A program made the translations under genes and the position numbers. The notes under the pieces were generated by a model that made no database searches, was not told the DNA's origin, and saw only the letters and a program-made list of their open reading frames with translations. This document shows positions 13,756 to 15,547 of a DNA stretch of 64,000 nt, piece after piece; positions within the stretch are counted from its first letter, which is position 1; each line of letters opens with the position of its first letter. The stretch comes from Halorubrum salinarum. GTDB lineage: Archaea; Halobacteriota; Halobacteria; Halobacteriales; Haloferacaceae. Location of the stretch: contig NZ_CP053941.1 of assembly GCF_013267195.1 (NCBI RefSeq), positions 310,001 through 374,000 of the forward strand. Reading direction: 5' to 3'.

Positions 13756-14386
13756 GCCGTCCCTTCCCGACGGGGTCGAGCGCCGCCAGATAGCTGGCGA
13801 GGAGCGGTTGGCGACCCGCGGCGAGCCGGTGTACGGCGAGCCGACCGCGGACGGCTGGCGCGCGTGGGACCCCGAGCGGTCGAAGCTCGGCGGCATGCTG
13901 GAGCTCGGGCTGGAGACCGGGCTCGCGGGCGGGGAGACGGTCCTCTACCTCGGCGCGGCGAGCGGGACGACCGTCAGCCACGTCGCCGACTTCGCCGGGC
14001 CGACGTACGCGGTCGAGTTCGCCCCGCGGCCGGCGCGCGACCTGCTCGACGCCGCCGAACCGCGCGACAGGCTCTTCCCGCTGCTCAAGGACGCTCGGAG
14101 GCCCGAGACGTACGCGCACGTGGTGGAGGCCGACGTCGACGCGGTCGTTCAGGACGTGGCCACGCGCGGGCAGGCCGACGTGGCCGTGCGCAACGCGCGG
14201 TTCCTCGCCGACGACGGCCGACTGCTGCTCGCGATCAAGGCGCGCAGCGAGGACGTGACCGCGGCGCCGGACGCGGTGTTCGATGACGCGCTCGACCGCC
14301 TTCGGGAGGCGTACGAGGTCCTGGAGACGCGGCGGCTCGACCGGTTCCACGAGGACCACCTCGGCGTCGTGGCGACGCCGAAGTGA
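13748..14386 (+). CDS. flpA: Fibrillarin-like rRNA/tRNA 2'-O-methyltransferase
   Basis: 212 residues, normal length for archaeal fibrillarin. SAM-binding fold with VLYLGAASGTTVSHVAD, the acidic strand YAVEFAPRPARDLL, and later LLLAIKARSED and DHLGVVA at the C-terminus. It methylates riboses at sites chosen by C/D guide RNAs, working with Nop5 and L7Ae. Its start overlaps the nop5 stop, the usual translationally coupled archaeal pair. It ends directly against the convergent HTH gene with no spacer. Confidence 0.95.
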   Translation: MSEPSLPDGVERRQIAGEERLATRGEPVYGEPTADGWRAWDPERSKLGGMLELGLETGLAGGETVLYLGAASGTTVSHVADFAGPTYAVEFAPRPARDLLDAAEPRDRLFPLLKDARRPETYAHVVEADVDAVVQDVATRGQADVAVRNARFLADDGRLLLAIKARSEDVTAAPDAVFDDALDRLREAYEVLETRRLDRFHEDHLGVVATPK

Positions 14387-14581
14387 TCACTCGGCCGGTT
14401 CGAAGATGTCCTCGATCCGGCAGTCGAAGTGGGCCGCGAGCGCGAACGCCAGCTCCAGCGAGGGGTCGTAGCGCTCGCGTTCGATGGCGTTTATGGTCTG
14501 TCGGGTGACGCCGACCGCGGCGGCGAGGTCGGCCTGGCTCTCGCCGGTCTCGGCGCGTCTGTCGGCGATGTCGTTCCTCAT
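14387..14581 (-). CDS. XRE-family HTH repressor, small
   Basis: 64 residues. Almost the whole protein is one XRE helix-turn-helix: GESQADLAAAVGVTRQTINAIERERYDPSLELAFALA, followed by a short tail CRIEDIFEPAE. The chosen ATG overlaps the stop of the upstream membrane-protein gene by four bases (ATGA), which supports it over a further-upstream in-frame ATG. Small regulators of this type are typically paired with a membrane protein and repress their own operon. The tandem palindromes at 15025-15057 are the likely binding sites. Confidence 0.85.
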   Translation of the reverse strand: MRNDIADRRAETGESQADLAAAVGVTRQTINAIERERYDPSLELAFALAAHFDCRIEDIFEPAE

Positions 14582-14994
14582 GACCGGTACTTGTGATAGC
14601 CGACGGCAACGCCGTACACGACGTATATCGCGAACAGCGTCCACGTCGCGCCGTGGAACCAGCCGGGGAGCGTGACCGCGCCGGTCTCGGCCAGCACGAG
14701 GCCGCCCGGCAGCCCGAGGACGAAGACGTACGCGAAGACGTTCAGCGTGACCTGGCTCGCCTTTCGGTCGATGGTGCTGTCGCGCTCGTCGTACAGTTCG
14801 ACGGGGCTGAACCGTTGGACCAGCCCCATACCGAGGCCGCCGGCCCAGTAGAGGGCGACGCCGAGGACGAACCTATCGAGGGCGATGGCCACGAACAGCG
14901 CGGCGATGCCGGCGCCGAGCAGTCCGTAGGCGATGCGCTTGTAGCGTTTCCGTGTGGAGGGCCGAGTCGTCGCGGAGGCGGTGTGTTCGCTCAT
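14578..14994 (-). CDS. DUF2178-like four-helix membrane protein
   Basis: 138 residues with four predicted membrane helices (about 20-38, 42-60, 82-104 and 113-133). A basic/acidic motif, ELYDERDSTIDRKAS, sits between helices 2 and 3 and is typical of DUF2178 proteins. It is first gene of a two-gene operon with the XRE regulator (4-base overlap). Function is unknown; the pair is widespread and usually autoregulated. The palindromic operators lie 31-63 bases upstream of its start. Confidence 0.75.
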   Translation of the reverse strand: MSEHTASATTRPSTRKRYKRIAYGLLGAGIAALFVAIALDRFVLGVALYWAGGLGMGLVQRFSPVELYDERDSTIDRKASQVTLNVFAYVFVLGLPGGLVLAETGAVTLPGWFHGATWTLFAIYVVYGVAVGYHKYRS

Positions 14995-15002
14995 GGTAGG
15001 GG

Positions 15003-15057
15003 GTAAAGCGAGCGGGAACCGTGTGTAAAGCTCGCTTTACAGTAAAGGACACTTTAC
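15003..15057. promoter_or_regulatory. Tandem palindromic operators GTAAAG-N4-CTTTAC
   Basis: Two perfect inverted repeats, GTAAAG-N4-CTTTAC at 15025-15040 and again at 15042-15057, are separated by one base, giving a 17-base period. A further single half-site GTAAAG lies at 15003-15008, close to the start of the DUF2178 gene. The arrangement fits cooperative binding of a dimeric repressor, most simply the XRE protein of the same operon. Confidence 0.75.
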
Positions 15058-15138
15058 GTTAGATAATAAAACTGTCGCCGGCGAGGTCACCGGTGGCTCA
15101 CGAGGGTCGAGACAGTCGTTCGCCGCCGCTCCGCCGTG

Positions 15139-15474
15139 CTACCACGACGGCGGCGAGAAGCCGGCGTCCTCTAAGATCGGCTTCCAGCGCTTCTGGACCG
15201 AGAGCCGCGAGACGTCCATCGCGTCGGCGACCGCCGACTGCGAGCGCTCCTCGCCGCGGATCAGTCCGGCGGCGTAGAGGCTGGCGGCGGCCGCGACGCG
15301 CTTCCCGCGGTCGTCGTCGGGGGCGCGCGAGAGGAACAGGTCGACCGCGGTCGAGCGCGTCTCGTCGTCGAGGTCGAGCGAGCGGCACGCTTCATCGAGC
15401 AGTTCGATCCACGCCTCGTTGTCGACTCGGTCGCTCGCGCGGTACACGCGGCGAGGTAGTCGCGGGAGGGACAT
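15139..15474 (-). CDS. Single cyclin-repeat TFIIB-like protein
   Basis: 111 residues. The layout matches one cyclin fold of TFB: helices ending in LFLSRAPDDDRGKRVAAAASLYAAGLI, then a helix-turn-helix-like end SQSAVADAMDVSRLSVQKRW. Full TFBs have an N-terminal zinc ribbon and two cyclin repeats, and both the ribbon and one repeat are missing here. It might modulate transcription by binding the BRE or competing with TFB; this is inference. It is divergent from the endonuclease III gene. Confidence 0.7.
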   Translation of the reverse strand: MSLPRLPRRVYRASDRVDNEAWIELLDEACRSLDLDDETRSTAVDLFLSRAPDDDRGKRVAAAASLYAAGLIRGEERSQSAVADAMDVSRLSVQKRWKPILEDAGFSPPSW

Positions 15475-15547
15475 AAACGCCCGCGTCGGCGCGCTCGGAG
15501 TTCCCCGCGGTCGCCGGTCTCAAGTCGCACGCGCACGTAGCGCGCGT

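Follow-up and report, generated by a model that had tools for sequence, protein, structure and literature searches.

The window, a 64,000-nucleotide stretch of DNA from Halorubrum salinarum, carries on its minus strand a compact array of GTAAAG and CTTTAC words in front of a two-gene operon, which raises the question of which protein recognizes the array and what is controlled through it. The first gene of the operon (14578..14994, minus strand) encodes a 138-amino-acid membrane protein with four predicted helices that scores 25.5 bits against PF09946 (DUF2178), above the curated cut-off of 22.8. The second gene (14387..14581, minus strand) overlaps the first by four bases and encodes a CylR2-like XRE (Cro/C1-type) regulator of 64 amino acids, with a score of 50.2 bits against PF01381 (HTH_3; curated cut-off 23). 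Among solved structures, the sequence closest to the regulator is PDB 9k3w ("Transcriptional regulator, PbsX family", E 1.2e-14), and chains of CylR2 also match it (2xiu, E 2.9e-12; 1utx, E 8.4e-11). In the model of the DUF2178 protein (pLDDT 88.8), the third of the four helices starts with the conserved DER stretch; of the 23 matches that a Foldseek search with this model returned at E up to 10, none reached 0.001. Immediately preceding the pair, on the same strand, positions 15139-15474 encode a 111-amino-acid protein in which one TFIIB repeat is recognized (PF00382, 26.0 bits; cut-off 23.6).

We consider it likely that the array is an autorepressor operator for the XRE protein of this operon, with the membrane protein as sensor, extra targets of the same array elsewhere and a probable hairpin in the leader. 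The operator part of this explanation is supported by sequence comparisons across archaea and bacteria.

An array of dyads at the promoter of a DUF2178-XRE operon

Two perfect dyads one base apart and an additional half-site had been described in the original prediction, and all are present: GTAAAGCTCGCTTTAC at 15025-15040, GTAAAGGACACTTTAC at 15042-15057, and GTAAAG on the plus strand at 15003-15008. Read on the coding (minus) strand, dyad 1 (15042..15057) is GTAAAG-TGTC-CTTTAC and dyad 2 (15025..15040) is GTAAAG-CGAG-CTTTAC, both of them conserved; the base at their junction (15041) is a T, as in 106 of 110 arrays in which the membrane protein gene comes first. The third CTTTAC ends 8 nucleotides before the ATG. 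The array had also been called phased, and its spacing is indeed regular, but the two dyads do not lie on one face of the helix, their centres being 17 bp, or about 1.6 turns, apart.

These sites are unique. The window contains two matches to GTAAAG-N4-CTTTAC at up to two mismatches, both perfect, compared with a mean of 0.22 in shuffled windows. The proposed search of the genome found just these two perfect sites in 3,340,250 bases, both at the pair's own promoter, and none for a reversed control pattern. At up to two mismatches, 11 places match in the genome versus 25 for the control, and weaker matches are uninformative because the control outnumbers them.

Upstream of dyad 1 are a TATA box, TTTATTAT (15063..15070, minus strand), and a BRE-like CGACAG (15072-15077, minus strand). 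When 109 membrane-first arrays, mostly haloarchaeal, are aligned, an AT peak that corresponds to this TATA box appears at -13 to -7 before dyad 1, preceded by a GC-rich BRE-like stretch, and the position of the array is fixed relative to TATA. The distance from the centre of a TATA box to the transcription start is ~26 bp, so that dyad 1 would lie between the TATA box and a predicted start at the dyad junction (15041 or 15040), and the dyads would span about -17 to +16. Since they are located just downstream of TATA and around the predicted start, a protein bound to them would be expected to block polymerase, which suggests autorepression. In the mechanism that we propose, two XRE dimers would bind the two dyads of one array and keep RNA polymerase off the promoter, so that the operon would repress its own transcription. 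A signal at the membrane or envelope would most likely be sensed by the DUF2178 protein, which would thereby set or relieve repression by XRE; we infer this role from the co-occurrence of the two genes and from what is proposed for CylR1 and CylR2 (PMC3709268).

Conservation of the array and its association with XRE genes

Whether such sites are conserved upstream of homologous operons was a question raised by the original prediction, and conservation proves extensive. Homologues of the membrane protein occur in 50 of the 148 genomes of the family, with 54 matches altogether, and the loci of 50 of these matches were examined for the 33-bp array, allowing up to 4 mismatches among its 25 fixed letters and a distance of up to 1.1 kb upstream. 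The array is present at 49 of the 50 loci and the control at 0 of 50; 30 of the 49 arrays are perfect, in a set that includes many closely related genomes. An XRE gene lies downstream of the membrane protein gene at 49 of the 50 loci, and the single locus that lacks the array (L052) is also the single one that lacks the XRE gene. The distance exceeds 800 bp at seven of the loci, with one or more further genes following the array. At the level of the class, arrays with at most 3 mismatches are found in 160 of 391 genomes and in 55 of 86 genera, with no match to the reversed pattern among the matches listed.

Individual loci show variations on this arrangement. One copy of the pair appears to be decaying (L018, at G071:C2): its membrane protein gene has no recognizable start codon, its XRE reading frame runs beyond the usual end, the recognition helix is altered and both dyads are degenerate, with the third site intact. 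This copy was omitted from the protein alignment because its start codon is not assignable. At another locus (L186, 3159-3236), two back-to-back DUF2178 genes each have one array at their common promoter region. In L046, L047 and L050, dyad 2 contains the start codon (GTAAAG-N-ATG), so that operator and coding sequence overlap, and an ATG occurs at this offset inside dyad 2 in ten arrays.

The same association emerges from the DNA pattern alone. A scan of genomes with the pattern GTAAAGNNNNCTTTACTGTAAAG, using no protein input, returned at least 120 stretches, and in 100 of these 120 a related XRE gene, matching the haloarchaeal profile, lies beside the array. The nearest XRE gene is 380-560 bp from the array in 62 cases, with one gene between, and 20-60 bp from it in 28 cases, where XRE comes first; seven others are at 800-900 bp, and one each at -280, 65 and 1084. 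XRE genes are missing from 20 stretches; in 16 of these the array is no more than 700 bp away from an end of the stretch, and in the other four (L061, L070, L076 and L108) it is farther away. The stretches span haloarchaea, a methanogen, Alphaproteobacteria, Bacillaceae and Actinobacteria; among the matches listed, the taxa are haloarchaea, Erythrobacter and relatives, Hyphomonas, Bacillaceae, Arthrobacter, Tessaracoccus, Methanobrevibacter and a few Clostridiales.

In the bacterial and methanogen families sampled the array is rare, being found in 10 of 119, 2 of 99 and 8 of 120 genomes; one methanogen genome in this sampling matched the control pattern. In each of ten bacterial or methanogen genomes the array is confined to a single locus (two in G423), and the control pattern is absent. 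Sphingomonads and Tessaracoccus have a triple array with the same 17-bp period. In three sphingomonad loci (L055, L072 and L105) the triple array holds CTTGAC/GACAAG halves, in which TTGAC resembles, by eye, a promoter -35 element. In the Clostridiales stretches L066, L087 and L108, the array adjoins an rbgA-like GTPase gene unrelated to the pair, and in L108 it lies between rbgA-like and rnhB-like genes (names assigned by eye); no XRE gene matching the profile was present in the stretch examined around any of the three. A possible homology between DUF2178 and the membrane partners in bacteria was tested with hhalign and is not supported (probability 5-7%), one aligned stretch being DER-like.

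Recognition helices and candidate additional targets

We collected 70 loci of a Bacillaceae-type XRE family by protein similarity alone, dropped five, and compared the 65 with a readable recognition helix, counting GTAAAG-N4-CTTTAC at no more than one mismatch within 860 bp upstream. The site occurs upstream of 23 of 37 genes whose product has N or I after RQT[IV], and upstream of none of the 28 with G, V, A or S at this position; the remaining 14 of the 37 N/I genes have no site in these 860 bp. Six control palindromes matched at 2, 0, 0, 0, 0 and 0 of the 65 loci. The rule was first noticed on the initial 30 loci (8 of 15 versus 0 of 14), and the 40 loci fetched afterwards gave 15 of 22 versus 0 of 14, for which a Fisher test yields 6e-5, a value that overstates the significance since some of the loci are near-identical. 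Among the 100 XRE proteins adjacent to arrays, 99 have N or I at the position, the exception being from Methanobrevibacter. The recognition helix of CylR2 (SRQTINGIE) is of the same type. Seven Bacillaceae-type loci (L204, L224, L226, L231-L233 and L240) encode a TRQT[IV]NAIE helix and have two dyads 44-46 bp apart, rather than 16-17.

Some haloarchaeal genomes contain two or more arrays, and the extra ones are found in front of other genes. In L061, L084, L173, L177 and L192, they precede genes for an ABC ATPase and a membrane protein of ~580 amino acids without a Pfam match. In L065, L070 (identical to L184), L173, L177, L179, L182 and also L141, they precede a lipoprotein gene whose product combines DUF3887 and alpha/beta-hydrolase domains, and ABC transporter genes adjoin some of these lipoprotein genes. 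One array (L077) precedes the gene of a 634-amino-acid protein that, by eye, is like a secreted serine hydrolase. There are 145 arrays (136 distinct) in stretches L053-L192, and 120 of them precede DUF2178 genes, XRE genes or both. The other 25 comprise 12 at ABC transporter or lipoprotein genes, those in L077 and L181, and 11 without an assigned gene, ten of which are near the end of a stretch, the last being that in L108.

These observations bear on three alternatives to an autorepressor array. We reject the idea that the repeat arose by chance and has no function, to which we attach practically no credence: 3 of 100 shuffled windows did contain two or more matches at two mismatches, but the perfect sites are unique in the genome with no control match, and the array is retained throughout the class and at nearly every DUF2178 locus, where the control is absent. 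It is also very improbable that the array serves a different regulator of the same genome, one that would control the pair, with the XRE protein of the pair binding elsewhere. A global regulator could in principle act on a conserved promoter, but a genome with only two perfect sites does not suggest a global regulator, and the array co-occurs with this type of XRE, carrying one class of recognition helix, across archaea and bacteria.

Somewhat less remote, although still unlikely, is that the XRE protein activates transcription or, like the controller proteins of restriction systems, forms a tunable switch of two dimers, and is not a plain repressor. Tandem dyads at a 17-bp period permit occupancy in two steps, and the three dyads of some lineages and the widely spaced dyads at some Bacillaceae-family loci are compatible with such a device. 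Against it, the dyads lie downstream of TATA and around the predicted start, where a bound protein usually blocks transcription, and the aligned promoters have no activator-like site upstream of the BRE. Autorepression by the XRE protein of the operon is the reading that we retain for the two dyads, and the third CTTTAC calls for separate consideration.

The third CTTTAC and a candidate leader hairpin

The third CTTTAC (15003-15008, minus strand) had been viewed as a half-site of the array. It may be something other than a third operator half, because its flank, in leaders that have the site, covaries with dyad 2 as if the two were paired in the transcript. An exact CTTTAC occurs within the next 60 nucleotides in 34 of 110 membrane-first arrays; in its place, control hexamers are found 0, 1, 1, 0 and 0 times, and control hexamers that overlap the CTTTAC word 3, 13 and 5 times. 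The four letters before the third site equal the reverse complement of the dyad 2 spacer at 112 of 136 letters, compared with a mean of 84.7 in permutations and maxima of 100 (5,000 permutations) and 99 (10,000 permutations). Among the 19 unique combinations, the two letters adjacent to the core match at 35 of 38 (permutation mean 25.7, maximum 33).

It is somewhat more probable than an even chance that the third CTTTAC is the 3' arm of an RNA hairpin in the 5' leader, whose 5' arm would be the left half of dyad 2. In the window, the putative 5' arm is GTAAAGCGAGC (15030..15040, minus strand), overlapping dyad 2, and the putative 3' arm is the third CTTTAC with the preceding GCTCG (15003..15013, minus strand). 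The leader of the window is predicted to fold with an 11-bp stem at -17.0 kcal/mol, versus -5.35 (sd 2.02) for shuffled sequences; two other leaders reach z -3.5 (L028) and just -1.66 (L016). Among 12 distinct leaders whose third site comes 10 nucleotides after dyad 2, each of the four variable pairs in the long stem has changes in both arms, and the stem has a covariation of 0.209 versus 0.083, a level reached in 0 of 500 shuffles. Two of five measures of covariation are not significant, namely the number of pairs changing on both sides (reached in 55 of 500 shuffles) and the number of further pair types (127 of 500), and these are the measures least prone to effects of relatedness. The third site ends 7-9 nucleotides before the first ATG in 22 of 33 cases, while the length of the loop varies. 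A search of Rfam with positions 14380-15500 gave nothing close to a gathering score, its three matches having E values of 0.23-0.48.

A weak third operator in place of the hairpin has a considerable chance of being correct, though one under a half. The third CTTTAC would then be an operator half or part of a weak dyad, and its match to dyad 2 would reflect the preference of the protein, relatedness of the genomes or mutation by template switching. In these 12 leaders, the hexamer that precedes the spacer of the third site does resemble GTAAAG (with the G and an A invariant); moreover, the genomes are related, and the two robust measures lack significance. However, the other three spacers fail to match the flank of the third site (29, 25 and 48 of 136 letters), the spacing from the third site to the first ATG is kept despite the varying loop, and pairing within a local third dyad exhibits no covariation. 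We favor the hairpin, in the guarded terms given above.

Related systems and implications

The pair most resembles CylR1/CylR2 of Enterococcus faecalis, in which, according to PMC3709268, CylR2 acts as a repressor at its promoter, with CylR1 believed to relay the signal. Both systems have an XRE protein of ~65 amino acids, of the same sequence family and helix class, adjoining a gene for a small membrane protein. By analogy the haloarchaeal pair may work in a similar way, but we do not class it as a CylR1/CylR2 system because the divergent target operon of that system is absent here: no perfect site in the genome lies outside the pair's own promoter, and the upstream neighbour, the TFIIB-repeat gene, is on the same strand. 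Small XRE dimers that bind palindromes upstream of their own genes are the subject of a survey in bacteria, which reports 223 motif clusters and binding in nine of ten cases tested (PMC12565409). The survey is confined to bacteria, and its accessible text describes no tandem 17-bp array, reach into archaea or membrane partner. Neither GTAAAG nor CTTTAC appears in its main text, although its motif table may contain this motif. DUF2178 is mentioned in none of the literature searched, and none of the papers examined for the array describes this operator, with the same proviso about the motif table of PMC12565409.

Two adjacent dyads at their own promoter are bound by the controller (C) proteins of restriction-modification systems, which are small XRE dimers. 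The array shares this layout with them and differs in sequence. What appears to be new is the reach of the array across archaea and bacteria, the recognition-helix rule, the extra targets and the possible hairpin.

These elements can be joined in a broader proposal, which we advance tentatively and rate a little short of an even chance. The tandem GTAAAG-N4-CTTTAC code, with its 17-bp period and RQT[IV][NI] helix, would be common to archaea and bacteria by descent or transfer, with a different membrane partner and different machinery at the promoter. Some haloarchaea would, in addition, use the left half of dyad 2 as the 5' arm of a hairpin located at the very beginning of the mRNA, with the 3' arm ~8 nucleotides before the start codon, such that one sequence would be preserved in two capacities: as DNA that the repressor recognizes, and as RNA that serves expression of the first gene. 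An operator that doubles as a hairpin arm would, if real, be an unusual overlap of control at the DNA and RNA levels.

Pairs of an XRE and a membrane protein are widespread, and their targets and signals are mostly not established. The contrast of N or I with G, V, A or S in the recognition helix provides a concrete hypothesis of specificity, and a searchable recognition sequence allows regulons to be read from genomes; for some haloarchaea it already suggests ABC transporters and lipoprotein hydrolases as members.
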